Positions 7,019 through 46,100 of a DNA stretch of 47,951 bases are shown here, piece by piece. This DNA is from a virus. The notes under the pieces were generated by a model. The model worked only from the letters and a program-made list of their open reading frames with translations, did no database searches and was not told the origin of the DNA. A program made the translations under genes and the position numbers. The DNA lies in IMG/VR virus record IMGVR_UViG_3300033571_002253, positions 1-47,951 of that record. One strand, given 5' to 3'. Each line of letters begins with the position of its first letter. The stretch's first letter is position 1.

Positions 7019-7026
7019 TATTTATT
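7019..7026 (-). promoter_or_regulatory. Candidate late promoter AATAAATA ending five bases before the portal ATG
   Basis: The minus strand reads AATAAATA, one mismatch from TATAAATA, and overlaps the stop codon of the upstream tape-measure-like gene. The five-base spacer ACACT precedes the portal ATG at 7013. This is the same arrangement as at 5203 and 24268. Confidence 0.5.
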
Positions 7027-10000
7027 AGGCACGCGCATAACGCAACAATTTGCTTTGTGTGTCGTTTCCTGTATCCAATTTATTGATTACATTATCCAAC
7101 TTGTTTGATAACATTTCCATTAAGTTCTTATTGATATTCACTATATCGTTTTGAATTTGCTTTGTTTCTGCTGTTTTATCAGCCGAAGCCAACTGTGCTA
7201 CTACTTCTTCTGTAGACTTTTTACCTAGTTCTGCTAGTATGCTATTAGGATCTAATGGAACAACCATTTCAGTTCCGTGAAGCAACGCAGGATATCCGGT
7301 ACTAGGCCCTGATGCAAGTCCACCTGTTTTTGCCTCAATAACTTGCCCCGGTTTAAATCCTTCTACTTTTGTAATAGTAGATACTAATGCTTGTCTTTGT
7401 GCCATATTCAATGAACCAAGCACAGTAAACGGACTTGTTTGTGTTGCTTGCACTACAGCATCGATATATCTTTTTGTTGCATTTTCATTTGGTGGAGCAT
7501 ATCTAGATATTGCTTGTGCTATAGTAAGATTGGCATAACTAGGGCCAAACAGTAAATCTTCTTTTGCTCTTGCTCCCATTTCATATGTAGGGAATACTGC
7601 AAATCTGCCATCATGTCCAATAGCCCCTCTTCTTTTTGCGAAATTGCCATATTCAAGATTACCTGGATTGTTGTTTCTCCAGTTTCTTGCACCTTTTCGT
7701 GTCTGTGTTTTTCCGTCACTTGTTTGTACTACAGTATAACCAGGACCCGCGTCTACAACCTTTGTTATAACTCCGCCTTGACCTCCTGCATTTTTGCCTG
7801 TGACAGATGCCATACCTCCAATTGCAGGGGCAGTAGGTTCAGTTGTACCGCCACCAAAAACGGACATCACAGAATTACCAAGTGTAGTTAATAGTTGACC
7901 TATTGCACCGCCTACCCCAGATCTTGCCAACGGACTAGTGCCTGTTCCCCCACCGCCGGGCATAACGCCGGCTGCTCCGCTAGCTCCGCCGCCACCCGAT
8001 AGATTGATAATCATAGAATCGCCCAATTTTTCTAAGAATTTAGTATGATCACTTGTAATTTTTACTAATCTATCCATCAAATCTAATGTTTTTAGATTGG
8101 TTTTATTAATTTCCTGATTTTCAGTAGTTGAAACTTCTTGATTATTTTTTAATTGATCAACCAATAATTCTGGTTTAGTTCCTTCTTTGACGGCAGATAC
8201 TAAAGCAGTAGGTAAATTAGATGCGGCTGTTCCTGTACTGCCCGACAATGCTGATATTCCCATACCTAAACCAGTTCGTAGTGCGCCGCCTCCCGGTATC
8301 ATACCTAATCCCATACCCAAAGCATCTAGTGCAGCGCCGCCAAAATTCCCTGCTCGTAGGTTTCTTACTAGATCCATACCCGACATAACTGTACCAACAC
8401 CTGGCATCATTCTACCAAACATACCCAATGCTCTGCTTGCACCTCCCATTCTACCGGCAAATCCTGCAATAGGACCACCGGGAGGACCACCGGGAGGAGG
8501 AATATTTGGGGGTGCGCCTCCGCCTTCGCCACCACCTCCGGGAGGTATTGGTCCGCGACCTCTCAATCTACTTGCAAATCTACCTACTGCTCTAGCGCCT
8601 CTTACTGCACCCATTACACCGCCTGCTATTGCACCAAGAGTCTTAATTCCTGCTACTACAACCAATGCACCTAACACCATTGGCATAATACCAACTAATG
8701 CGTCAAATGCTTTGTATAGTTTATCCGTAGCAGTTGCTAACTGTGGCCATTTATCTAATGCACCTTGTATATTTTGTTTTAAATCTTGTTCGAATTTAAC
8801 TCTAGTTTCTATTTCTTTTTCAAGTGCGGCATTTCTTGCGTCTTCAAATCTATCGGGTGCATCTTTTGCTTCTTGAGTTTCAGTTTTGATTTTCTTTAAT
8901 ACAGTGCCTATGTCTTCGCCACTAGCCAGCATAGCGTTTAGTTTAGTCAGGCTATCACCTGTAATACCCAACATTTTAGCGACTTGTTGTGCATTTTCAA
9001 ATGACCCGGTAATAGGGTCTTTCATCTCCTGCACTCTTTGGTTTAATCTAGCCTGATATTCTCTTGCAAATTCTTCTGTATTAAAAGTACCGCTTTGAAA
9101 CTGTTTGTGGTACTTATCCATATCAATTCCCAAATTAGTAAATTGCTCTGCTAATTCCTGAGACATTTTACCGCTTTCTAAGAATGTTTGGAATGACCCA
9201 GCCACATCTGCTTTACCTATGGCTACTAATACTTCTCCCACTTGATTAAATTCTGTTTTCTGTCTTTCTACAAGTTCAAGTTGTGCTTGAATAGTTTTTC
9301 TTTCTTGTTCGTTTGTTGCTTGATTGAGTTGCGCTCTTAAATTTCGTTCCTTATTGAGCAAATCATTATTAATAACTTGTGCTTGTATTGTGTTGGCTGC
9401 TTGCTCAAGTTGTTTCTTGACAGAATCTACATTTTCACCTGTCAATCTTGATAATTCTTGCAATGTATCAACATATCTTAATGATTCTTTTCTAACCTTA
9501 CCCGAATCTATTTCTTGCTGTGTAAATGCTCTACCCGACATTCTTTGTAATGCTAAAAAGTCACCCTGGTGTTGTGTCAATTCTTCAAAACTTATGCCCA
9601 AACTTCTATATTGACTACGGACCTTTTCGCCCACATTAGTCATTTTTATGAAGTTTTCAGCACCTCTAGCAGCATCACCGCCTAAACCCTGCAGTGCTGC
9701 ACCTGCACTACGCATTGGTTTTAGTATATTGTCAAATTCTGCCATTGTTCTGCCTGATGCATTAACTAAGTCCTGCAACTTGTCGGTAGTCATAGTAGCA
9801 CTTGCGCCAATCTGACTTAATGAATCATTTGCTTTTAAACTATTGTCAATAAACTCCGCTTGTTTTTGCATATAAATTGTCATGCCCTTGACAATTCCAC
9901 CCATCACTGTGCCTAATACTCCGAAATTTTTACCTAAATCATATGCCAAATCGCCGGCCTTTCCAACTGCATTACCGTACTTGCTCATTTGACCCGAAGT

Positions 10001-10372
10001 ATTGTTAATGGTATCAAGCAATATACCAGATAAGTCTAACATATTGCTACCCAATTGCCCCATTGCATCTTTAAGGGCTTTACTTCCTTGTGCTAATTCA
10101 TGTTGTGCTTCAGTTAAAGCCTGAACAACATGAGCATTTTCTCTTGTTACTTGGGTAGATCTTTGTGTTGCAGTAGTGTTATCTGTTTCAGCCCGTTGTC
10201 TGTCTCTAAGTGTATTGATAGTTCTACGATTAGCATCTGTTGTATCATTGGTAGATCTTGCAATACGAAATAAAGAGGTATTTAAGGTGCTTAATGATTC
10301 GGTAAAATCTTTCAGTTCTTCATTTGAAAGATTTATAAATCTTAAAAATTGGTTTAGTTCTTGTTCATTCAT
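7025..10372 (-). CDS. Tape-measure-like tail protein with peptidoglycan-hydrolase-like segment
   Basis: A 1115-aa protein. Residues of about 1-540 are mostly helical with coiled-coil stretches. Residues of about 552-590 are hydrophobic (GIMPMVLGALVVVAGIKTLG), as in tape measures. Residues of about 600-645 are Gly/Pro rich (PPGGPPGGPIAGFAG). A segment of about 890-1010, with RNNNPGNLEYG, GRFAVFPTYEMGA and ISRYAPPNEN, matches a lysozyme/transglycosylase-like domain seen in many phage structural proteins. The C-terminus returns to helix. This architecture is that of a tape measure protein, which sets tail length and can help the tail pass the cell wall. T4 gp29 has 590 aa, so this one is much longer. 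An AAGG ribosome binding site supports the start at 10372. It lies divergent to a pair that look like tape-measure chaperones. Confidence 0.75.
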   Translation of the reverse strand: MNEQELNQFLRFINLSNEELKDFTESLSTLNTSLFRIARSTNDTTDANRRTINTLRDRQRAETDNTTATQRSTQVTRENAHVVQALTEAQHELAQGSKALKDAMGQLGSNMLDLSGILLDTINNTSGQMSKYGNAVGKAGDLAYDLGKNFGVLGTVMGGIVKGMTIYMQKQAEFIDNSLKANDSLSQIGASATMTTDKLQDLVNASGRTMAEFDNILKPMRSAGAALQGLGGDAARGAENFIKMTNVGEKVRSQYRSLGISFEELTQHQGDFLALQRMSGRAFTQQEIDSGKVRKESLRYVDTLQELSRLTGENVDSVKKQLEQAANTIQAQVINNDLLNKERNLRAQLNQATNEQERKTIQAQLELVERQKTEFNQVGEVLVAIGKADVAGSFQTFLESGKMSQELAEQFTNLGIDMDKYHKQFQSGTFNTEEFAREYQARLNQRVQEMKDPITGSFENAQQVAKMLGITGDSLTKLNAMLASGEDIGTVLKKIKTETQEAKDAPDRFEDARNAALEKEIETRVKFEQDLKQNIQGALDKWPQLATATDKLYKAFDALVGIMPMVLGALVVVAGIKTLGAIAGGVMGAVRGARAVGRFASRLRGRGPIPPGGGGEGGGAPPNIPPPGGPPGGPIAGFAGRMGGASRALGMFGRMMPGVGTVMSGMDLVRNLRAGNFGGAALDALGMGLGMIPGGGALRTGLGMGISALSGSTGTAASNLPTALVSAVKEGTKPELLVDQLKNNQEVSTTENQEINKTNLKTLDLMDRLVKITSDHTKFLEKLGDSMIINLSGGGGASGAAGVMPGGGGTGTSPLARSGVGGAIGQLLTTLGNSVMSVFGGGTTEPTAPAIGGMASVTGKNAGGQGGVITKVVDAGPGYTVVQTSDGKTQTRKGARNWRNNNPGNLEYGNFAKRRGAIGHDGRFAVFPTYEMGARAKEDLLFGPSYANLTIAQAISRYAPPNENATKRYIDAVVQATQTSPFTVLGSLNMAQRQALVSTITKVEGFKPGQVIEAKTGGLASGPSTGYPALLHGTEMVVPLDPNSILAELGKKSTEEVVAQLASADKTAETKQIQNDIVNINKNLMEMLSNKLDNVINKLDTGNDTQSKLLRYARA

Positions 10373-10468: not shown

Positions 10469-11293
10469 ATGGACAATAACCCACTAAAGCAGTATTTTCG
10501 TAGACCGGCAGTTTATATAAGATTACCTAGCAAAGGTCTTGATTACCCTGAAGGCTCATTAGAAATGCCAGAAAACGGAGAACTACCTGTTTATCCTATG
10601 ACCGCTATAGATGAAATAACAAGCAGAACACCAGATGGTTTATATAATGGAGCAGCCGTTGTAGAAATTATCAAAAGTTGCATACCTAATATAAAAAACC
10701 CATGGCACATCAGTGCTTTAGACTTAGATACTGTGTTGTTGTCTATTAGAGCAGCATCAGGTGATGGAAAACTTGATGTTCAAACTACTTGCGAAAAATG
10801 TGAAAATCAAGATGAGTACAAAATAGATATACCTGCATTGCTTGCAAATTTGTCTAGCGGCAATTATAACGAAGAATTGGCACTAAATGACTTGTTGATA
10901 AAGTTTAAACCAATCAAGTTTTTAGAAATCAACCAAGCAGCATTAACACAATTTGAAGTAAGTAAGTCAGTTGCTAAAATCTCAGAAGCATCATCTAAAG
11001 AAGAGATAATGAAAGTCAGTCAAGATGCGTTAAAAGCAATCACTGAACTTACAATGCAAATAGTAGCAAAAGGCATAGAATACATCAAAACACCTACGCA
11101 TGTAGTAACAAATTCAGAATACATTCTAGACTTTTTGTCGAACTGTGATAAAAATACATATATTGCTATCAGAGATTATAGTACCGACTTAAAGGCAAAA
11201 TCTGAAATAAAGCCAATGCAAATCACTTGCACTAATTGCAATCATCAATTCGAACAAAAACTTACATTGAACCCTAGCGATTTTTTCGGTTAA
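10469..11293 (+). CDS. 26: gp26-like baseplate/tail-assembly protein with paired zinc-finger cysteines
   Basis: A 274-aa protein of the T4 gp26 baseplate family (T4 gp26 is 208 aa). Recognisable features are YFRRPAVYIRLPSKG at the N-terminus, YPMTAIDEI near residue 42 and SALDLDTVLLSIRAA near residue 82. Cys108-x2-Cys111 (CEKC) and Cys254-x2-Cys257 (CTNC) could form one four-Cys zinc site joining the two ends. The gene begins after a good ribosome binding site (AGAGGA). Its last codons are GAT TTT TTC GGT TAA, which hold a T TTT TTC slippery heptamer, and the following gene begins in the -1 frame at the stop. A -1 shift would give a fusion of about 349 aa, as in G/GT tail-assembly chaperones. 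Location next to the divergent tape measure fits such a role. Confidence 0.8.
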   Translation: MDNNPLKQYFRRPAVYIRLPSKGLDYPEGSLEMPENGELPVYPMTAIDEITSRTPDGLYNGAAVVEIIKSCIPNIKNPWHISALDLDTVLLSIRAASGDGKLDVQTTCEKCENQDEYKIDIPALLANLSSGNYNEELALNDLLIKFKPIKFLEINQAALTQFEVSKSVAKISEASSKEEIMKVSQDALKAITELTMQIVAKGIEYIKTPTHVVTNSEYILDFLSNCDKNTYIAIRDYSTDLKAKSEIKPMQITCTNCNHQFEQKLTLNPSDFFG

Positions 11294-11308
11294 TGCTTCT
11301 TGCGTTAA
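11281..11308 (+). promoter_or_regulatory. Candidate -1 programmed ribosomal frameshift site
   Basis: T TTT TTC occupies 11281-11287, with the zero frame reading GAT TTT TTC GGT TAA. The -1 frame then reads CGG TTA ATG and runs straight into the small ORF at 11293 with no stop. A seven-pair stem (11290-11296 with 11302-11308, one T-G pair, five-base loop) begins a few bases downstream and might stimulate the shift. The heptamer fits the X XXY YYZ rule exactly. Confidence 0.6.
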
Positions 11309-11517
11309 AACCAGAAAAAATCAAGAAGCTATTAGATACATACGACAAAGAAGTTATAGAAATAAAGGCATCGTGCCTTAGGTTAGCCTGGTATATGAGA
11401 GGTAGTGTCTCATATACCGATGTTCTGAATATGAGTTCCATGGAAAGAGAAGAAATAAACAAGATAGTAGAAAAGAATCTAGAGACTACAAAAAGTTCGG
11501 GTATTCCTTTCGTTTAA
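11293..11517 (+). CDS. Small tail-assembly protein, positional counterpart of gp51
   Basis: A 74-aa protein starting MLLALKPEKIKKLLDTYDKE and ending with KNLETTKSSGIPFV. It is mostly helical. Its ATG overlaps the stop of the gp26-like gene (TAATG), in the -1 frame. In T4, gene 51 adjoins gene 26, but T4 gp51 is 249 aa and I see no clear sequence match. Two modes of expression are possible: re-initiation at the TAATG overlap, or -1 frameshifting at 11281-11287, which would make this segment the C-terminal extension of a chaperone fusion. Both could operate. The gene is real by context, spacing and composition; its function is inferred. Confidence 0.75.
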   Translation: MLLALKPEKIKKLLDTYDKEVIEIKASCLRLAWYMRGSVSYTDVLNMSSMEREEINKIVEKNLETTKSSGIPFV

Positions 11518-11523
11518 TTGTCA

Positions 11524-11972
11524 GTTGGCCAGGGGCCAACTCTGTACTCGCTATCGCTCGTCCAGTAGTTTTATTTAAAATTTACGGTCTTATAGATTTA
11601 ATGGGCTTGTTTTAATGATAATCTTTTCGAAACACTTGCCGCTCTGAAGCCATGGTAGTGCTATTCAGCACTACCACAGTTTGGACTTGCCTGCCCGTCA
11701 TCCGTGACGCTTCTTCCCGTATAGTCGCCTACTATTGACACTATACGCCACCGGTTGCCCTGTAAAGTTTATGGACTGTAGTATGGGGATAATATCCCAG
11801 CAACGCATGTTACATATCCGCAAAGCGTAATAAGATATGTACTCATTGAGGGTTCGCACAAACGAGAGCCCTCTCGGTGTTCGATACACATATTTCTATA
11901 TGCATCCAATACTCCAGATCTGCAGGCGACTGTCTACACAGGCTTGCTCAAGGAGGATAGGACTTTCCTATC
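11524..11972. ncRNA. Hairpin-dense gene-free interval, candidate structured RNA
   Basis: The interval 11518-11985 between two convergent genes has no convincing ORF on either strand and looks richer in G+C than its neighbours. It holds at least nine simple stems: 11524-11540 (7 bp), 11653-11676 (10 bp, perfect), 11696-11709 (5 bp), 11718-11747 (8 bp), 11786-11798 (5 bp, nested within GTTGC 11754-11758 / GCAAC 11800-11804), 11812-11840 (7 bp enclosing CGC-AAA-GCG), 11848-11873 (5 + 4 bp), 11889-11902 (5 bp) and 11956-11972 (7 bp). Only one or two would be needed as terminators, and none has a clear T tract. I could not match it to tRNA, tmRNA, RNase P or a group I/II intron core. Strand is undetermined, because the stems work on both. 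Confidence 0.5.
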
Positions 11973-28175: not shown

Positions 28176-31100
28176 ATGACTAGAATTAGAACATTAGACT
28201 TTTTACCAACTATTTTTCAGACATCCACTAATAGTCAGTTTTTGGGTGCAACACTTGACCAATTAGTAAATCCACCTGTTACTAGAAAGATAGATGGATT
28301 TGTGGGTAGCAAATTCGGGTCTGGCATAAATGCCAATGATTATTATGTAAAAGAACCAACCAAACAAAGAACTGATTATCAATTAGAGCCCGGTGTTGTC
28401 TTTACTAAAAAAAATGAAAGCGTAGCAAAAGATTTCATAAGTTATCCTGGTTTACTAGATGCATTGAAATTACAAAACGGTATAACAAACAACAATGATA
28501 GGTTGTTTAACAGTCAATTTTATAGTTGGGACAGTTTTACTAATCTTGACATGATTATAAATTTCAACCAATATTATTGGTTGCCACAGGGATTACCTTT
28601 TGTTACAGTAACTAGTGACAATTTGTTAGATGTTGATACAGACATTTTGGGACAACTAAACTACACAAGCGCAAACGGTATTGTATTTACAAACGGATTA
28701 AAAGTAACTTTTGATGGTAATGTTACTCCTCAAACTTATCTAGAAAACGAATATTATGTGCAAGGTGTCGGTACAGGTATAGAACTTATTCCTGTAAATT
28801 CATTGATTGTACCCGAAGCATACACCGATTCAACTACGATACCTTATGATATTTTACCATATGATATAGGCAACTTTGATGGACAACTATACATACCAGT
28901 AAATCCTGATTACATAACAATTGCTAGAAATAGTATAAACAAAAATCCATGGGCTAGAAGCAATCGTTGGTTCCACATTCAAGTAATACAGGCAACTGCT
29001 TCTTACCTTGATAATCCGTCAATAATAACAACCTATGCAAATGAAAATAATAAGGCAAAAAGACCTATCATAGAATTTTATCCAAACATAAAGTTATTCA
29101 ACACAGGAACTGTTGCCAAAGATAGCATAGACTTTATTGATACAAGAACAACAAATGCATTTACTGAAGTTGCAGGACAAGCAGCATATTATCCAGATGT
29201 ACAAACATATACTTCATATACTGGTACAATATTAACAAATCCTACAGTTCAAACAGGTAGTTATATATTGGGTCAAACATATGATATACAAAAACTAGAT
29301 AGCACTACCTTAGAAACTTGGCAAAATATGGGCGCAAGTTTAGTATTTGATGGAAATTTTGCGATCGGTACAGAGTATATAATAACTAATTTGGGAACTA
29401 CTGATTGGAATAGCATAGCAGGCACTACGGGTGTTGTGTACACTGTGGGAGATAAGTTTACTGCTGTAAATCAGGGTGTTGTAGTGGGTACAGGAAGCGG
29501 CACTGCATTGACTGTGCAGTTTGTCACTAACACTAATGGCATTTATGGTAGTAATAGTTTTACAGCAGACACAGAATATTTCATAACTGATTTAGCCCTA
29601 ACTGACTGGGTAAGTTTGGGAGCAACAGAAGTAACAGTAACAAATGTTGGTTTAGGCTACCTATCTGTTTCTTCACTTGTATCAGGACAAGTTTATGTAA
29701 TTACAGATTTAGGTACTACAACTCAAACACAGTGGAACACTATAGCAGGCACAACAGGTCTTACATATGAGATAGGAACAAGATTTAAATGTGTAACCTC
29801 AGGAGTTGGAACGGGTCAGGCAGGCGTAGAATACTACATATCTAGTTTGGGTTCAGTGACACAGCAAAGATGGAATACTTTAGTAGGCACTACTAATGTT
29901 ACATACAGTGTGGGTGATTTAATTATACCCGCAACACCGTTGTTAACCGGCGACGGTACATTGATTAAAAGACAGTTCACAACTAATACAGAAATTTCTG
30001 GGTTGCCTTTCCGCAATGTAGGTACAGGTCAAGCAGCACAAGGATTTGGTTCATCTTTAGCACAAACAACTACAAATTTAATAATCGATAGCAATCAAGT
30101 AACTGGTAGTTTGATACCAGGTATGTATATAAACGATTTGATACTAGGGCAAGAAAGCATACTACCTCCAAATACTAGAATCGTAAGTATCACAGGTGAT
30201 AATACACTTACAATTTCAGTATTTTGGTCAGTACCAACCATAGTTTCGGGTACAACAGCAGATGCAAGTTTTGTTGCAAGTACTAAAAATAATGCTGACT
30301 TATTGTTGTATGATGGCGCAAGAATAGTATTTGCAAATGAAAACAATGTAGGCATAAGAAGCAAGATTTATGTCGCTAACTATAGCACATTGAGTTCAAG
30401 TTTTCCTGTATTGACATTGACTGAAGCAGCAGATGGACAAATGCTAGAAAACGACCAATTTGTGGTAACTAGAGGCCAAAATAATCAAGGCAACAGTTAT
30501 TATTTTGATGGTGTAAATTACAATCTTGCACAATCTAAACCCGATATCAACATACAACCAAAGTTTGACATCTTTGATAACAACGGAATCAGTTTTGGCG
30601 ATGAAAGTGTTTATGAATCTACTACATTTGCAGGTTGTGAATTGTTCAAGTATAAAGTTGGCGTTGGTGCTAATGACAGTATTTTAGGATTCCCTATCAG
30701 TTACAGTTCAATCAATAATGTGGGTGATATAACTTTTGAAGTTTCACTCAATACCGACACTTTCAACTATGTAAGCAGTATTGCACAAAATGCACCAGTA
30801 ACACAGAATGTCAACACAGGTTATGTGTACAATTATTCTAACAGAACTGACTATACAAGATTACTAGGATGGCAGACTGCTGTTGCACCTAGCACTCAAT
30901 ATCAAATATTCGAATTTGATTATACACCAAATGTTCCAAAAGTGTTATTAGAGAACGGTGATACACTAACATTTACAGTGACATGCGATGTAGGGACTTT
31001 AGACAGAAACGAAACTATTTGGCCAAATCTACAAGTCTATAACAACAATACACTGTTGACAGAAACAGAAAACTACACAGTAACATTTAATCAAGATAGC

Positions 31101-34100
31101 ACTGTAGTAAATGTCTTTTTAACTGTTGATGAAAAAACAGTTATACAGGTATTATTGTTAAGTGACCAAGTCAGTGAAAACGCATATTATTCTGTGCCTA
31201 TAAACCTAAGCAACAATCCTTTCAATACTGATATCACTACAGTAGATATCGGTGATATCAGAGGCCAATATCAATCAATATTCTATAACAATCCCGACAC
31301 TACAGGAACAGTTTTTGGTTCAAACAATACTAGAGACTTAGGTAATTTAGTGCCATGGGGCAACAGAATCATACAAAATAGTGCAAGTTTGGTTCTTCCT
31401 AGTGCATTCTTGCGTAATGGAAGTTATAGTTTGTTCAATGCACTTGAATACAATAGCAAAGAATACATCAAGTTCAAGACTTTACTTATCGACACAATAA
31501 GCAAGACAGATTATCAACAAAGGTTCGACCCTGCATTTATACTTGATGATGCACTAGCGCAAATTACCAGTGTTAAAAATCAGGATATGCCATTCTTTTG
31601 GTCAGATATGTTGCCAAACAAGGCTGCATACATAACCAACATATATACTGTTCAAAATACTGTTTTAAACAGCGTATATCCATTAAGTAAGATTTATAAT
31701 TTTACGACTGCAAATTATGATGGTGTATTGGTATATCTAGAAACTACAGTAGACAACATCAGAGTTGTAAAACAATTGTACAGAAATATCGATTATACTG
31801 TAAGCACAGATAGTCCTAGCGTAATTGTCACAAAAGATTTGATAAAAAATGACAAGATTATAGTCAAAGAATACAACCAAACATATGGTTCTTATGTACC
31901 TAACACACCAACTAAGTTGGGCTTATACCCTGCTACGATTCCAAGTGTAGTGTTGGATACATCTTATAATGAACCAACATACTTCATCAGAGGCCATGAT
32001 GGGTCATATACAAAATTGTATGGACAATACATTCCAGAAACCAACTTGTTAGTTGATTATAGAGACCAGGGTCTACTAGAATTCGAAACAAGAATTTATA
32101 ATAATTTAAAACTAAGCAATGTCATACCTATACAAGATGTAGAGGTGGTTCCCGGTTACTTCAGAGATACAGATTTCAGTTATGCTGAATGGCTACAAAT
32201 GTATACACCTAATTTCTTGAATTGGGTTGGTCAAAATAGACTTGATTATAAGACACAAATATATTTGACAAACGACCAATGGACTTACAACTATAAAAAC
32301 AGTCAGGATAGGTTGAATAGAGAAATAATACAACAAGGATATTGGAGAGGCATTTACCAATATTATTACGATACTACTACGCCAGACCAAACTCCATGGG
32401 AGATGATTGGTTATACTAACAAACCAAACTGGTGGGAAAATCGTTATGGTCCCGCACCTTATACAAAAAACAATCTAATACTATGGCAAGATTTAGAAAA
32501 CGGTATAGACTATAACAATGGAAATCCTGTCGAACTTACACAATTTAAGCGTCCTGGATTAACTAACATCATACCTGTTAATGATTCGGGTGAATTATTG
32601 GAACCATTTTACACAGTAGTAGGAAATTATAATTCTAATACACTTAAAAGAAACTGGGTAGTAGGAGATGATAGTCCTGTAGAATTTAGTTACCGCCGTA
32701 GCAGCACATACCCATTTGACTTGATGCGTTTATATGCATTAACACAGCCCGCTAATTTCTTTAATCTTGCAGTAGATGTTGATAACTACAAATATAATAC
32801 AGAGTTTAATCAGTTTCTATACAATGATAGAAGTCATTTAGTTCCAAATCAGTTAGAAATATATGGAAATGGAACAGCAAAAACATCATACATCAACTGG
32901 ATAGTTGACTATGAAAAACAAGCAGGTGTGGGTGCAACCGAAAAGATAACAGATTTACTACGAAATCTAGATGTCAGACTTGTTTACAGACTTGCGGGCT
33001 TCAGCGACAAAACATTGTTAAAATTCTTTGTAGAAAAAGGTAGCCCTGAATCAAATAATGCTTCATTGTTGATTCCAGACGAAAGTTATCAAGTGTTATT
33101 GTATGAAAATCAGCCATACAATAGATTGACATATAGCAGTGTTGTTATACAAAAAGAACTTTTAGGCTACAGAGTTTACGGAAACAGTCAAAGCATCGCA
33201 TACTTTACTGTATTAAAACCTATACTCAATGGCAACACTTCAACTATAACAGTACAAGATGCAACAGTAGAAGTTGCCAATGACTATTACAGTACAGTAG
33301 AATATATCCCATATGGAACTTTGTTTTATAGTACATATGACATAGCACAATTTTTGATGAGTTATGGAAAATATCTACAAACTGAAGGCTTTATATTCGA
33401 CCAAATAGAAAACGGTATTGAAATAACCTGGAATCAAATGGTTGCAGAATTCTTGTATTGGTCACAAGTAGGATGGCAAATAGGAAGCATTGTAACTTTG
33501 AATCCTAGTGCTAATAAGTTACTTGTGAACAAAGAAAGCACAATAGTTCAGCCATTGGTGTTCCAGCAGAACAACTTTATATTAAATCAAAACTTATATC
33601 CAATAAACAATAAGGATTTGTGTATTTTTAGAGAAGGTAGCGAATTTAGAGCAACTCCATTGAATGCCGGCGACAGTATTTCTTATGCGCAATTCAACAT
33701 GAGTAACATAGAACACGGTATTGTGTTAGATAATATTACATTATTCAACGATGTGATTTACAATCTGGTATCAGGTCTAAAACAAAATAGAATTTATCTA
33801 CGAGGAACTAAAAGTGCTGAATGGAACGGCACTATGTTTGCCAGCGGCTTTATATACAACCAAGACAACATTCAAGAGTATTCAGGTAATATAAAATATA
33901 CTAAAGGCTCAATCGTAAAATATAAAAACAAGTATTGGACTGCATTGAAAATAGTACAACCTAATAATGTTTTCAGCGAATTAGATTGGAAGGAAACTGA
34001 GTACAACGAAATACAGAAAGGGTTACTACCAAATCCAAGTACAAGAAGTTACGAATCTGCGTTGTACTACAACATTGACAAAGCAAACTTAGAACAGGAT

Positions 34101-37100
34101 GCTGACCAGTTGTCATTTAGTTTGATTGGCTTTAGACCAAGACCATATATGGAAAGTGCTGATTTAACTGATATTACACAAGTCAATGTATATAAAAACA
34201 TGATTAAAGAAAAGGGCACAAAAAATACATTAAATGCCTTTAGAAACGCACAATTGCCTCAGGGTAATATTGATTATGACATATATGAAAATTGGGCTAT
34301 CTTGTCTGGAACATTTGGCGGAGTAATTAACAATAACTTTATTGAATTCAAACTAAGTGAAAGTAAATTAACGGGTAATCCAAGTATAGTTGGTCTAACT
34401 AACGGCAACGACATAGAAGGTGCAGAACAACTAGTACCTATCTACTCTTTGTTCAACTACAGTAATCCTGTTACTACCGCACAAGTTTTACCTACTACAA
34501 CTAGCACTTACGAAAGCGAGTTATATCCAAATGCAGGATATGTAAACATCAATGATGTTAAAATGTCATCATATTCATTTGCAGGTTTATCAACGGCTGT
34601 TGATAAAAATGATTTGATAGTAACTCTTAACCAACTTTATGTGAATGATTATGTATGGCTAGCAGATTATCTATCAACATGGCAAATACTAACACCTTAT
34701 AGTATTGGGCAAGTATTGCAAGTCCGTAGCAATTTAAACGGCACAAGCACGGTTACATTCAACAAACCACACAATTTGACTAGAAATACTATTTTTAGCA
34801 TAGTAAACTTTGACACATCGGTAAATGGATACTATGTCGCAGAACAAATTATTAGTCCTTACCAAGTACTAGTTCTATTGAATTTGGGAAGCAGTAACCG
34901 TCAGATTACTGGTCAAGGAATAGTTTTAGGCTTCAACAATAATAGAGTCAGTAAGCCAAGTGATATACAAAATCTACCATTATTAAATTATGAATTTACA
35001 AAATACAAAGCATGGGTAGATCAAAATACAGATGGTAATTGGGCCGTTTATAGAAAATCTATCAATTATCTGTTCGATAAAGAATTCACTAAAGTAAGCA
35101 GTGATAAGTTTGGAGCAGCAGTAAACTATAACCCATATAGTGACTTATTGATTAGCGATACTGGTTTGGGTACTGTTTACAGATATCAATATGACACAAT
35201 ATCTAATCAATATAATTCTGACCAAACATTCATCGAAGGTGACAGTTTCGGCACAAGCATAGTAAATGCGGCAAATATAATATTTGTATCTAAACCAACA
35301 GGCTTGTCTAGTGTCGATAGATTTGTAAAACCATATATTGTCAATACATCAATAGTATCAGATAACATGATACCGTATCAGTATAACAGTGCTACTGTGG
35401 GACCATTTGTGCAGGGTATTTTAGCACCAGCAGGATGCACTAACTTTGGTCAAAGTATGGCGGCTTCAGAAGACGGCAACTACTTGTATGTAAGTGATTT
35501 TGACACATCTACTCCCACAGCAAGAAATAAAATTCATGTTTACAGAAAGAACAACATCGAAGTACAAGCGCCTTTTGTTGAAAAACAAACTTATCAAATC
35601 AGTGAGTTAGGCACAACAGACTTTACAGACATTGGCGCAGTAGAAAACAAGGTTGGTATATATTTTATAGCAACAGGTACGGGTAGTGGCACAGGTAAGG
35701 CACTGCAATCTAATTATGAATTGGTTGCAACTATCGATGGTCCAAACACTGCTGTAGATAAGTTTGGTTATAGTCTATCAACAAACTATTACGGAGACAC
35801 TTTAGTAGTTGGTGCTCCATATACAGAAGTCGATTCTATGCTAAGGTCGGGCAAGGCTTATATCTATCAAAGAATTGTTCAGAATTTTGAAGCACAATCA
35901 ACTAGTACCGGATTAGAATTTGCACTATGTTTTACTCCTAATTCTGCTCCTATTTCTGTCTATATCAATGGTACTTATGTTCAAGCAACTGAATACAACA
36001 TAACGGGAAATATTTTAAAATTCAATGGTCAATTGAATGCGGGTGATATAATTACCGCAGGCAGTAATGAATTTGTATTAGTACAAACTTTAGAAACATC
36101 TGTACCTAAAACAGGTCTACAATTCGGTACTAGTGTTGATAACAACATATATGGTACAGAAATTTTGATAGGTGCGCCGTTTGAATTAACTAACAACACG
36201 ATAGAAGGGGCAGTTTACCGCTACACATATGGTAGCGCAAGATTTGGATATATTACCGGCACAAATGAAGTAAATGTATCAACAGATAGAATACTGTTAA
36301 TAAATGGCTATAAGGTAACGATACCTGCAGGCACTGCATTACAAGCAGCAAGTGCAATAAATCTAGCAAAAATAACCAATGTGGTTGCAAGTGCAAACAA
36401 TAACATCTTGACTATAAGTCTATTAAACAATGCCCTAGCACAAGTCAATCAAGAATTGTTGATAGGCGTGACCGAGATAGACACATTAAGTGAATTGGGC
36501 TTTAACTTGTTTACCAACACACAAACAATTCTTTGCCCACATCCTGTTGGTTCAACACAGTTTGGAACTAACATCAAGTTTAACGAACAAAATTCAATAG
36601 TCGTGAGTGCAGTAACAGGTACACGATTTACACAAACTACTTTTGATTTTACTGATGATGAAAACCTAGATAATGATACGGTATTTGACAACAATTCAAC
36701 TCAGTTCTTAGATACATTTGCAAATGCCGGCGCAGTATATATGTTTGATTATCTAGAAAATTACAACGAAACACTAGATAATATAGGTGCATACACATAT
36801 GCTCAAAGTTGTAACAGTCAAAATCTAGAATATGGACAACAGCCATTATATGGAACTGCATTAGATTTTGCAGATAATAAAGTAATCATAGGTACTCCAA
36901 ACTACAGACCTACTGATATTGACGGACAAGTTATAGTTTATAGCAATAATACAGGTATCAAAAACTGGTCTGTATACCGTCAAAGTAATCCTGTTGTAGA
37001 CATCAATAGCATACAGAATACTCAGTTGTTCAGTGCTGAAACTAACAACACATTAATTAACTTAGATTATATGGACCCATTACAGGGTAAATTGTTGGGA

Positions 37101-40100
37101 GCAATAAGAGAAAATATAGATGTTATTTCTAATATTGACCCTGCTAGTTACAACAATGCCAACAATACACAAACAGGTTTTGTTTGGGGAACAGCACAAG
37201 TAGGTACGGTTTGGTTTGATACATCAACTGTTCGTTTTATAAACTATCACCAAAATGACAACACATATAATGCTAGATATTGGGGAACATTATTCCCTGG
37301 AAGTGATGTAAGAATATATAGTTGGATAGCAAGCAATGTACCTCCAGTAGAATACCAAGGCCCGGGAACACCTAGAGATACTGGACTGTTCACAGTACAA
37401 ACTGTCTTGAATTCAAGTAATCAAGTCACTCCTGTATATTACTTTTGGGTCAGAGACACCGGTATCGTATTCCCTGATAAAACATTAGCAGATGTAACAG
37501 TAGCAGAGTATATAAACAATCCTCAGTCTTCGGGCATCAGTTACATGACTCCTATTTTGCCTGATGCATTTGCTTTGTATAATGTCCAAACTTACATTAA
37601 CGCAAATGATACAGTACTACACATAGGATATAATACTAGTAATGTAGAAGATGTTGCCCATACAGAATACACATTGATTCGTGAAGATTTTCCAAGTGAT
37701 TTCTTGCCTGGTTTACCTAATGTAGCAAAGGGCATAAATTATCCTGAATCATTATATGATAGGCTATTGGATAGTCTGTCGGGCACTGATGAAATCGGTA
37801 GTGTTGTTCCCGATCCTTTCTTGCCTAAAGCAGTACAATCTGGTGTATTAGTAAGACCAAAACAAAGTTTCTTCTATAACCGATTTACAGCACTACAGAA
37901 CTATTTGCAATATGCAAACTCAGTTATGTTGTTGTATCCAATCACCGAAATTCGCAGACCTACTTTCTTGGATGAAAGCGGAACATATTACAATGTTGCC
38001 GACTTCTATGAATATGTAAATTGGTGGGCAGTAGGATATAATGATAATACAAAATCTACATTACAAGTTCAGTTTTATGCAGACTTATCTACACTCAATG
38101 TACCACAAGGAACAATAGTTACAGTAGCACAAAATAGTCAAGGTCTAGCAGAAACTTATATCTACAATGGCGAAGGTATATGGAATAGAATAGGCTTACA
38201 AAATGGAACAATACGGTTTAAAGATGAACTATATGACTATGCTTTAGGCAAATATGGATTTGGTGGTGACTTCTTTAGTACTGCTCCATTTGATCAGTAC
38301 CCAAGTGAAGAAACAAGATGGATAGTTCGTGCAATCAACGAGCAAATCTTCACTAATGACCTATTGATTTATAGAAACAAGGGTCTGATATTGTTGTTCA
38401 ACTACATACAAAGTGAAACACATGAAAACCAAAACTACTTGCCTTGGTTAAATAAAACATCGTTAGTAGATGTTTCTCATACAATAAGAGAGTTGAAACC
38501 ATTACAAAACTTTGTAAGCGACAACCAAGAGTTCTTGTCTGGCTATGTAAATGAAGCAAAACCATATCATGTTGTGATAAAAGAATTCTTGTTTGAATAT
38601 AAAGGCACTGATATGTATCAGGGAAATATTTCTGACTTTGATTTGCCAGCAACTTACGATACAAATATAGATACTTTTGTAAGTCCTCAACTAGTATATA
38701 ACAACTCTAATACACCATATGAATTCTTGCCTGACAGTGCAGTTTGGAATAGAACTGAATATAACCAGTGGTTTAATAACTATGGTGTAAGTTTATCAGG
38801 ACAAGCAGATTACTACATGACTAATTTGGCAAGTTATGTTACATTGGCAAGCAATTTCTTGATTGTTGATAACATTTCGGGTTTCCCTGTACAGGGCGTA
38901 ATCAAGATTGCTGATGTAGGTGATGCAAACAAATTTGAATTCATAGGATATAACTCTATAGACAAAGAACTAAACATGCTTTTGGGATTAGTTCGAGGAG
39001 TCAACGGTTCTGAAATATATGACCACATCCCAGGTGAAAAAATATATATTGATTTGCCGAAAGTTTTGGTATTGAATGGCGGAAAGAGTTATACATCAAC
39101 ACCAAATGTAACCGCATATATTGACACAGTTAAATATCCATTGCCTAAAGAAGAAATGGTACTAGAAGCAGTAATGAACGGTGATAAAGTATCTAGTATA
39201 AATGTAATTAATGATGGATTAGGTTATGCGGTCACTCCTGAAATAATCATAGACCCTAGCATAGTATATGATTTTGACAGTATATTTGTAGACTTGTCTA
39301 ACAATACAATACAAGTGTTTGCACCTGAGTTGGCCACAGGAGAACTAGTAAAATATACAACAGGCAATAATAGTATAGGCGGATTAAAAACCAATCAGTA
39401 CTATTATGTAAATGTCCTTGAAACAGTACCGAATATAATCATAGCCTTGTATACAACTTACATTGACTGTGTAAATGATAATAATCGCATTGTATTCATG
39501 AGTACTGGTTCGGGAACACAAAGTCTACAATTGGGTGCAAGGGCTATACCTATCACTACAAGCAGCCCAATAAGAGAAAACAATATTACATTGCGTTTTG
39601 ACAGAACTAGTTATGATAGTCAAGTGACAAACTGGGAAGCAAATAGTTTCTATGCAGGAAACTTTATGGGTTCCTTTGAAAATAGCATAAACATGTCAAG
39701 TTCTAATATTGAGTTGAGTTCTGTAAATCCTGACATAAACAATATATTAGCAAGCAATGGCGGTATTGTATTCCCTATCGAGTCAGTAACTAATGATAGG
39801 CAGTTAGTATGGTCATCATTTGAACGAAATATACAATCAACTAATGGTTCTACTGATGTTATTACATTAGATGTTGATATTTCTACAGATAACGCTAGCG
39901 GTAGTACTATTGGATTTACTGTGGGCATGCCTGTAAAATTCATAGGTATTGTAGGCACAAGCAATATTGTGTTAGGAACAACATATTATATAAGTGAAAT
40001 CGTGAACACTACACAATTCAAGATTTCAAGCACACAATATGGCCCAACATTTGATGTAGGTTCGTTTACGCCATCAGTAGATGCATTTAAGTGTGTGACT

Positions 40101-43100
40101 GCACAAGTAATCGATACTGCTGTTGTTTCTGTTGTATATCCAGGCATCAGAAACGCAACAGCAACAAATGACACTAACAACACAATTACTGTTCCATTAG
40201 ATAAAATAGGTACAGGCGGCACACAAGGCTTGTATACTGGATTAAGCGTTGTGTTTACTGGAAATACATTTGGAAATGTAGAAGAAAATGTAGTTTACTT
40301 TGTTGCAAGCGTCATAGATGAAGAAACATTTACTATAAGCGAAAACAGTAATCCACTTACTATCAAAGGTACAAGCATCAACACAACTAATCAGTTGATT
40401 GTTTCAACAACTACGGGATTGAATGTAAATGACAAGATAATATTCAACTCAATGAGTATTAATGGGGTCAATACTTCTAACTTTGGAAACATCATAAAGG
40501 GCAATGTGTATTATGTAAAGGAAATTGGTGTCAATGTAATTTCACTAAGTGAGACAGTTGATGGTCCAGAGTTTGTTTTAAGTGCGATTCAAGCGAACGC
40601 ATATACATATGCCTTCTTTACAAGTCAAGAAGACACAGTAGATTTGTCTACAGCAACAGGCAACATGTCCATGAACATACAAATGCCTGTAAGCCCTGGT
40701 CAAGTCAATGGTCAAGAATTAACTTTCTATCAAACATCTGTGCAGTACCCAAATATTACTGGTACTACTTTTGGAAATCTCGTAGAACAGACAGTAGAAC
40801 AAGTATTAGCATCTCCTAACCGTATAGCAATAGACGGTAATATGGATAGACTATATAATGGATTCTCATTCAGAGTAGCAGATGATGTGGGCGGATTATA
40901 TTCTGATAGAACATACTACATGACTGGTCTACAAAACCTACAAATAGAGTGCGCATCAACAAGTAATACAACATCCACTATTAATGCGAACTTTAACGGT
41001 AATATCATGACTATTACTAGTAAAACAGGAACAGATTTACTCTATAAAGGAACACTCATCACAGGCACAGGATTATTCGAACCAATTTATATCACAGACT
41101 TCATAACAGGTTCAGGAGGTTTGGGTACATATACAATCAATACTGATTTCTTTGTGTATACTGAACTAAACGGGTTAACCGCAAGCACAGGTATAATAAC
41201 CACTGAAGCATCTTTCGACACAAATAGCATTTATGAGGGAATGCCTGCTGTATTCTCTGGTAATAATTTAGGTGGCATACAGTTGGGCTTAACATACTAT
41301 GTAAGAACAATAATTAATAGTACACAATTTACTATCTCTGCTCTCAAAAACAGAGCAAGTGTTGTATTAGACCCATCAGCAGGTACTATGACATTGACTG
41401 GCGCAGTATCAGCAAGTGCTTACTTAGATGTAGAAAATCTTGAAATAGGTGATACTTACGATATACAAACTATAGGCACTACTGATTTTACTACTGTGGG
41501 TGCAATATTAGAAACAAACGGTGCGTTTGTGGTTGGAGTAACTTATGTCATTCAAGATTTAGGAACTACACTGCAAGCAAGTTGGAACTCAATAGCAGGA
41601 ACAATAGGCGTAACTTATAATGTAAACGACACATTTACAGCAGTTATAAGTGGTTCAGGGGCGGGAAACGGCAAAGCATACCGTAAACAATTTACTGCAA
41701 CAAGTACAGGCATTGGTACAGGAACTGCGCTAGTACAGTTGACCAATGATGATACTCAAACAACATTAACACAAGAAATAATTTCAAACCCAACATTTGA
41801 CATTAGTTACATATTGGGCGGTTATAGAGCCATTGTTAACAATGGCGGAACTGGGTTTACTATAGATAACACCATTACTATCAATGGTAGTTTAGTAGGA
41901 GGCACAACTCCAGATAATAATGTAACATTGACTGTTGACACTATATATCCTATAGTTGCAGGCGTTAATGATTTAGATATACCAATCGAATCAAATGGAC
42001 AAATAACAAATGTAAGTTGTTCAGGAACACCTAATGAATTGTCAAATAACTATTATCTAAAAGTCAAAACAGCAAATTCATTTGAAGTTTATAGTGATAG
42101 TAGAATGACTGTACCAGTAAGTGGTCTAACTATTCCATATACTGGATTTACAACTACAACTGCTACAAGCATCACTGCTGCTAACGACAGAATCACTGTA
42201 TCTGATTCAACTATTTTCAATGTCAATGACCCTGTTGTATTTACAGGCAACATATTCACTAATGAGATAGTTTTAGGCAACACTTATTATATTTTCGATA
42301 AGCCAACTAGTACAACTGTAAGATTGACAGACAATCCAGGTGGAACAGTAATAAACTTTACAACTGACAGTTCAGGTTCGATGTCTATGACTACAGCAGG
42401 TAGTTATATGCTGTTGAATACACCTTTCTATGTAAATTCTAGCATTGTAAAATACAATAACAGAGTTTATGCGTGTGTTGTAAGTAACAATGATAGTGAG
42501 TTTGTATTTGGTAAGTGGGAAGAATTGAACAGCGGTGACCGTAGACTGAACGCAATGGATAGAGTTATAGGATACTACCAACCAACTGACAATATGCCTG
42601 GTGTAGAACTTGAACAATTGTTCGATGGAGTCACATACCCAAATACAACATATAAAGGAAATACTTTTGACTTATCTAGTCAGCATAGTATAAACACCAA
42701 CCTACAAGATCAAGTATTCTATCCAACTAATGTAAATTTGGCAAGCGCAATATTTAACGGTACCAATTATGTAGCAGTATCTAATATGCCTACATACAGT
42801 GGATTAGCAGCAGATATAGAAATATCAAATGATTGGTTGTTAGCAAAACTAGCAGATCAACCAATGTCATTGACTGATATTCTGTATGTCAACAACAAAT
42901 ATATCTTGACTGCTAACAATACTGCAATACCATTATTGGTTAGCAACGACGGAACAACATTTAGTGCCGATGGATACTATGTTCCATATTTGACTCCAGA
43001 AGTTGACATACCTTATGTCAAAACTAAGTTGATTGCAAGTGATTTATATTTCAATAATGTTGCATATGGTAATGGTAAGTATGTATTTGTAGGAAAAAAC

Positions 43101-46100
43101 ATCACTACTACTAGCGATTTAGCACTTTACAAAGAAACATATAAGTTCTCTAGCCCAACTACAGGAGAACTATACGGTGTTGCATACATAAACAATGATT
43201 TTTACACAGGATTTTTGGCTGTAGGGTATCAGGGAACAGACAAGACAATACTATACAGCACTGATGGATTAAGTTGGACTAAAGTATCATCTACTGCATA
43301 TAACTACGGTTCAGCAACAGTACCGCAACAAAACGCTACATTGAATGCCATAAGTTATGATGACGATTCAATAGTTGTAGTGGGTGAGCAAGGTGTGATA
43401 TACAAAGCTACATCGTTGAATGATTGGACACTGGTTCAAGTCGCTAACGATAATCTCAATGCGATAACATTTGCAGATAATACTTTTGTCGCCGTCGGTG
43501 ATCAGGGTATAGTTTATAAGAGCAATGATGCTGTATCATGGACATTGGTATCTACCCCTACAGTTGAAGATTTGAATGATGTGGTTTATGCTACAAATGT
43601 TTCGACATTTACTATTGTCGGAAACAATAATACTGTTCTACAGACTACAGATATAAATGCTATATCGGTTGTATATGATACTACTGAAATATTCAGCACT
43701 CCAGACCCTGTTTATACTGTACAGGGAGATATTTTCCAATCAGGCTATGCTCCAGAAGAATTAGTTGCAGGTGTAGTAACTGACCAACTAACTATGATTG
43801 TCACTACTCGTCCTGGCACTAACTGGCCTGCTGAAGAGTATGCACATGTTGGCTATAATGTGGTAAGCACAGAACTTGATGCAAACATAGATAATACATA
43901 TAGTTTTGATGGCTTAGTAAACATACCTGCAGAATTATCAGTGTTTGTAACACAATCAGGACTATCAACTACTATTTACGATACACTAGACTATACAGTT
44001 GATTGGGTCAACAAAACCATAGAACTAAACACTAATATAACCGGCTCAGACAAATTAAGAATTGATGTCTATGAAGTAGGAAATGGTGACCAATTAGTCA
44101 AATCTAACACTGACAATGACCCAATAATTAATAATAGTATCACTGGGTTTGATGAAATATATTTGAGTTGCAATTATGCAGGACAGCGTATCAACGGAGG
44201 CGGAATAGTACATCCAGATACCGGCACTATAGATGATGTTGCAACACAAACAGAAAGCACTAATGATTTAATAACTGTGTTAGATACTTCATTGTATCAA
44301 CCAAATGATGAAATAACCTTCGCAGGAACCGTGTTTGGCGGAGTTGTAGAAGGAACAATCTATTATGTGAAATCAATCAATATTGCTCAAAGTGCAATTA
44401 CTATAAGTGATAGTTTACTAGGAGGAATAGCAGGTCCTGTTTATTCCTTGACTAATGGCAATGGGTCGATGACTGTAATAATACAAACAGGCCCAGGTGA
44501 TTTTTATACTATGCCTGCAGTTTATCACAACGGCATTAAACTAGTACCCGGACATACAAACATAGTATTCAGAACTAAGTCAAGCAATAATTCAGTTGTG
44601 ACTTATACTACTTTGGGCTTGTTACCAAATCAAAAAATAGTATTTGGTGACAATATGATAGGAAGTTTGACACCTCATCAAACTTATTACATCAAGTCTG
44701 TTCTAAATGGCACAGAATTTACTGTTAGCAATACTATCGGTGGAACTACTATATCATTAACAGACGGAGTTGGATCTGCAATATTTGTCACAGAAGATTA
44801 TGCTGCATCAACAATAGAAAATAGTGTGAATGCTAAAATCATTCTATCTGAAAACTTTGATATATCTACAGATTATCTAGCATATAGTTTCTTTGCTGAA
44901 ACTGAACCAGCACAATATGGATATACAATACCAGAAACACAGGTTATAACAAGCACAGGTTCAAGTACATATACACTAACTAACTTCATAAACGAGCAAA
45001 ATTCTACAAACGCTATTGTTGAAATAGATGGCCGTAGAATTATGCCTGCTATTTCAATACCTTACGATACTGTACCATATAGCATTGGTGGATATGACTA
45101 TGATGATAATTATTATATAAACCCAGCCAACGACACAATTACATTCTATACAACTACTCCAACTGTTGGACAAAAGATAGCAATCACTACATTTAATGAC
45201 ACACAAAGACAGTACTTGAACACTCAGTATGGTGTGATTGCAAATGCTACAAATACATTTACATTGATAACTACTTACACAGTAGGTAGTTCAACAGCAC
45301 GAATCAATGTAACTGATACTGAAAACTTGATAGTAGGTACTCCAGTCATATTCACAGAAACAGGAGTATCTTTGGGTGCAGCAACAACCATTCCTGAAAT
45401 CATTGCAGGAACACAATACTATGTTACTGATATTGATTTAGCCTTTAATACTATTGCAATAAGTCAGGAAAGAAACGGACCTAACATGACATTTACTGCA
45501 ATTAGCGCATGTAGTATAAACCTAACTCAGTGGGAACAAGACAATGTTGATAGATTGTGGGTCACGGTAAATGGCTACAGGGTTCCATCAAGCAACTTAG
45601 TATTAGGCCCTGCAAATGAAGTAACTATACTATCACCTGTAATAGTTGTAGGAGATGAAGTCATAATTACTAGCATGATGCCTTCAGCGTCTCCGGACAG
45701 CGAGGTCTATATGCAACTAGTAGACAAGAATAATCAGGGTACAGTTTATAGAGCAAACAGTGGCACAAAAACTTATGTCACTCAATCTGTAACAGACTTA
45801 AACAATACCATAGTAGTAAATGATTTGTCAAATATAACTAACACTATAGTTCAAACCAATACTACACCTGTTAAAACACTGAACTACTACTTGATACCAT
45901 TGAACGCGAACAAAAATGACATATCAGATATCACGGTTTATAACAACAACATAACTAGATTGGGATATATTCCAAATGATTTCATACAACTTGAAGTGTC
46001 TGGTACTGGTCCATATGTGAAAATCTATGAAGGGTCTTATATAGAAACAGGCGATAGTTTAACCATAACAACTATTGAGGGTAAGATCATATATATCAAC

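Follow-up and report, generated by a model that had tools for sequence, protein, structure and literature searches.

Programmed -1 ribosomal frameshifting is a well-known phage mechanism and has already been described for T4-like phages. The slippery site of the lambda chaperone pair, gpG and gpGT, is G_GGA_AAG, and the tape measure gene lies downstream of it; the usual order in phages places the chaperone gene upstream of the tape measure gene on the same strand. Frameshifting in the tail assembly chaperones of T4-like phages is reportedly the subject of Vladimirov, Gautam & Davidson 2022 (Virology 566:9-15), the abstract of which is said to state that several T4-like groups keep frameshifting and that T4 uses genes 26 and 51. 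As cited in PMC10885494, that study describes some T4-like phages that do not frameshift and instead have a short gene and, separately, a longer fusion gene. As far as it is relayed in PMC12846349 and PMC10885494, the short form belongs to the gp26 family, the long form adds a C-terminal part, and groups other than T4 carry a poly-T frameshift site. The chaperone locus of the Vandenendeviridae and Andersonviridae (phage Adele) also shifts to the -1 frame at a T-rich motif; the shift is conserved, and annotations often list the extension as a hypothetical gene of its own (PMC12846349).

The locus examined here lies in a 47,951-nucleotide stretch of viral DNA, hereafter the window, and shares the features relayed from the 2022 study. 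It differs in belonging to a clade of uncultured aquatic phages (the window clade) and in having a covarying hairpin, although this clade and the related jumbo phages may figure in that study as well. The Vandenendeviridae/Andersonviridae locus has a different motif (GTTTTT) and belongs to other phage families (PMC12846349). Relative to lambda, both the slippery site and the position of the tape measure gene differ, the latter being divergent in the window. T4 gp26 and gp51 are also close in kind: both match PF12322, and gp51 has an extra C-terminal stretch that appears homologous to the -1 ORF of the window. In T4, however, the two proteins come from separate genes that diverge from each other, and gene 26 has no such heptamer at its end.

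Gene layout and conservation of the heptamer

The putative short form of the chaperone (TAC-N, T4 gp26-like; 274 aa plus stop) is encoded on the plus strand at 10469..11293. It matches PF12322 (E=1.3e-14) and phrog_150 ('baseplate hub'), and has full-length homology with gp26-like proteins of jumbo phages, including Atu_ph07, Phosso, PA5oct, RaK2, 121Q, and GAP32. The gene ends with the zero-frame codons GAT TTT TTC GGT TAA, which contain the slippery heptamer T_TTT_TTC (11281..11287) and the TAA stop codon (11291..11293). The -1 frame is open between the stop codons at 11275-11277 and 11515-11517, such that slippage on TTT TTC followed by CGG TTA ATG would generate a 349-aa fusion. The C-terminal extension added in this way (TAC-C) is 76 aa in length and runs on the plus strand from the CGG at 11287 to 11517. 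The ATG of a 74-codon small ORF is located at 11293, forming a TAATG overlap with the stop codon of the gp26-like gene. The heptamer, the open -1 frame, and the predicted fusion reading had all been identified in the initial annotation and are confirmed here. No PF12322 match is found in the small ORF alone; the domain sits in the upstream frame, and the locus is not a single uninterrupted ORF of the T4 gp51 type, with PF12322 and the extension together.

Across the main ORFs of the window (15,201 codons), T_TTT_TTC occurs in the zero frame only twice, and its presence among the final ~14 codons of any one gene has a probability of ~0.2%, conservation left aside. A TAATG overlap by itself imposes a -1 relation between two ORFs, so the overlap is not evidence of frameshifting and the question must be decided by relatives. 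The heptamer and -1 continuity are present in 24/24 IMG/VR relatives, which are 47-65% identical and comprise 17 distinct sequences, and at the equivalent site in 17/17 jumbo-phage relatives, with T_TTT_TTC in 15 and T_TTT_TTT in two. T_TTT_TTC with the -1 relation is also found in 132/134 cyanophage-type loci and in all 69 of the gene-holding loci fetched via a neighbouring RNA (described below), some of which are contigs already counted in the earlier sets. Among distinct window-clade sequences, the heptamer is invariant (69/69). These counts confirm that the heptamer is real and far beyond chance. Together with the change of surrounding codons, stop position, and start codons around a fixed heptamer and frame relation, they lend support, by the comparison of relatives that the initial annotation had called for, to its suggestion of a chaperone frameshift resembling that of G/GT. 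Frameshifting very probably occurs in this phage group, and the comparative case for it is unusually clear.

Two loci depart from this pattern, in different ways. In S-SCSM1 (L055, ~3187), the heptamer is kept and the extension is in the +1 frame. This relation is probably due to a one-base sequencing indel, and would otherwise require a -2 shift; it was set aside as an indel because it is the only such case of 134. In Cygsa01 (L057, ~2809), the heptamer is lost and a TAATG overlap with the extension ORF is present instead, a possible switch from frameshifting to re-initiation.

It could be argued that the two phenylalanines at the end of the gp26-like protein are kept for reasons of protein function and that the frame relation is a coincidence, as F272 and F273 are invariant residues. 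This explanation can practically be dismissed, being contradicted by synonymous constraint at the site: the codons are fixed as NNT TTT TTC, whereas Phe codons outside the site in the same genes are 60-63% TTT. GAT TTT TTC are the sole conserved columns of the window-clade gp26 alignment with one codon throughout, and the other Phe columns are a mixture of TTT and TTC. Selection on the -1 frame (see below) is likewise not accounted for by a protein-level requirement. In the jumbo-phage group, the base before the codon pair is always T, while the amino acid encoded there is S, N, H, Y, R, A, or D. The zero-frame stop codon in these relatives varies in its position relative to the heptamer and can lie up to ~40 nt from where the site begins, indicating that the length of the overlap is free and the site is not.

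The extension, its probable translation, and the downstream hairpin

Alternatively, the small ORF could be an independent gene reached by termination-reinitiation where the TAATG overlap lies, with the heptamer incidental. In the window, a separate 74-aa protein could be made by re-initiation from the ATG at 11293, which overlaps the stop codon; an early ATG is also found in L023, L026, L027, and L033, and Cygsa01 has a stop-start overlap without the heptamer. However, in 51/69 distinct window-clade sequences, the opening 18 codons of the -1 ORF include no ATG, GTG, or TTG. Over codons 3-17, pN/pS is 0.52 in the -1 frame compared to 0.90 and 1.54 in the other frames: purifying selection is confined to the -1 frame and acts ahead of any start codon. 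Because start codons are mostly absent and the -1 frame is selected, the TAATG overlap is not a group-wide route to the extension domain. No Shine-Dalgarno-like sequence was found upstream of 11293, and a merely incidental heptamer would not be expected to be invariant. A separate gene is thus very unlikely, and the -1 ORF appears to be translated as an extension, even though the window itself does have an ATG. In the public genomes of Atu_ph07, PA5oct, and RaK2 (L026, L028, L037), the extension is truncated or unannotated; annotations in which it is cut short or missing are therefore carried by several jumbo phages.

A putative frameshift-stimulating hairpin is located on the plus strand at 11295..11329. 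It corresponds to the seven-pair stem reported in the initial annotation, and is formed by GCTTCTT (11295-11301) and AAGAAGC (11323-11329) following a 7-nt spacer after the heptamer. The basal six pairs (GCUUCU/AGAAGC) are 95% formed across 69 sequences, with 16 compensatory cells compared to 2.6 in shuffles (0/500 shuffles as high); this covariation was slight with the first 17 sequences and clear only with 69. The paired codons are fixed (CTT in 16/17, AAG in 17/17), whereas nearby Leu and Lys codons vary. Folding energy in the window clade is low relative to shuffles (mean z -2.53), and hairpin stability in the jumbo-phage group is not significant (mean z -0.75). The window clade has the elements of a canonical -1 signal, an X_XXY_YYZ heptamer with a structure 5-9 nt downstream, although the structure is unsupported in the jumbo group.

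The hairpin also bears on whether the long form arises through transcriptional slippage on the T run, with no slipping of the ribosome. In its favour, the conserved element is a homopolymer (T6, or T7 in two relatives). Bacterial RNA polymerase slippage usually needs 8-9 Ts, however, and six fall short of this. The phase of the heptamer is also fixed and the covarying hairpin has the spacing that a ribosomal stimulator should have, making polymerase slippage extremely unlikely.

We are highly confident, as judged from sequence comparison, that programmed -1 ribosomal frameshifting lets this locus specify two forms of a tail assembly chaperone. We infer the frameshift event and its efficiency as follows. 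Most ribosomes would read to the TAA, yielding the short form of 274 aa. Occasionally, both tRNAPhe would re-pair one base back at U_UUU_UUC, aided by the hairpin 7 nt downstream, and a minority of ribosomes would continue as ...PSDFF-R-L-M-L-L... to produce the 349-aa long form. On this reading, a frameshift mechanism already known from other phages would also operate in jumbo phages and in a large clade of T4-like aquatic phages that are uncultured.

Tape measure neighbour and relationship to T4 gp26 and gp51

A tape-measure-like gene with a lysozyme-like C-terminal part is located on the minus strand at 7025..10372 and is the presumed client of the chaperone. Relatives of this gene are adjacent and divergent in 20/24 IMG/VR loci. 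In pEa_SNUABM_47 and RaK2, the neighbours at this place carry a tape measure annotation or resemble such a protein, and the name of the window gene is taken from this public annotation and similarity. The divergent position noted in the initial annotation is confirmed. By analogy with the T4-like literature and the lambda case, both forms may be tape measure chaperones: acting jointly, the short and long forms would keep the product of the neighbouring tape measure gene soluble by coating it, and would bring tail tube subunits to it, as do gpG and gpGT. The fold of the short form, predicted from the window-clade alignment, matches predicted viral T4-like hub assembly proteins; a Foldseek search against the PDB identified no solved structure at E<=0.001. 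The tail region of the window contains a single 6060-aa ORF (28176-46358).

Homology between the extension and gp51 is visible through cyanophage fusions. In profile comparisons, the window-clade fusion matches the cyanophage fusion (E=4e-15), which in turn matches T4 gp51 via its C-terminal part (E=1e-14). Direct links are weak, both when the window-clade extension is compared with gp51 (E=7e-5 over 32 columns) and when the fusion profile is run by hmmsearch straight against T4 gp26/gp51; the cyanophage fusions are needed as a bridge. With this bridge, homology to the T4-like chaperones includes the extension, and the small ORF is identified as the predicted C-terminal extension of a long tail assembly chaperone. 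The initial annotation had taken the gp26-like gene and the small ORF as a T4 26/51 pair. This assignment must be revised in two respects: genes 26 and 51 are divergent paralogues rather than a consecutive pair, and the small ORF corresponds only to the C-terminal extension of gp51, not to the whole protein.

As judged from these sequences, cyanophages make the extension by the same predicted -1 shift; in T4 it is an in-frame part of gene 51, and the short paralogue has a gene of its own, 26. PF12322 is present in one copy in 7/8 jumbo-phage genomes searched (SCTP-2 being below detection) and in cyanophage S-RIM8, and in two copies in T4, RB43, and another T4-like record. The simplest reading is that most groups have one frameshifted gene and that the T4 group has two genes for the two forms. 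A simple evolutionary case can now be tested, in which cyanophages and jumbo phages would use a single gene with a frameshift and T4 the paralogous genes 26 and 51.

A probable structured RNA adjacent to the chaperone locus

Between the chaperone extension and a PDDEXK gene, right after the latter, is a predicted structured non-coding RNA of ~307 nt on the minus strand (11652-11958), conserved and strongly covarying. It is probably a previously undescribed RNA, absent from Rfam 15 and carried by about 80 or more contigs of uncultured T4-like phages. Neither the window nor eight RNA-bearing loci have a match in Rfam 15 at its thresholds, and a permissive Rfam search of the RNA stretch returned one match at chance level only. 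A blastn search of the RNA against 50,697 phage records identified nothing, the RNA model has no match in 11 named phage genomes or in L021, a member of the window clade, and the T4 late-promoter consensus TATAAATA is not found near the RNA.

Of the 63 predicted pairs, 36 show compensatory changes. Across 16 sequences the pairs are 98.0% formed, compared to 29-41% in slid controls; the alignment used for these counts is also the one that gave the structure, and they lean towards it. Chance is nevertheless a very unlikely explanation for the structure, as the slid controls fall far short of it and compensatory changes are many. The plus strand fits the fold less well than the minus strand. A 145-position model of the RNA matches 79/80 further viral loci fetched by a core 20-mer, a set that includes some contigs already counted.
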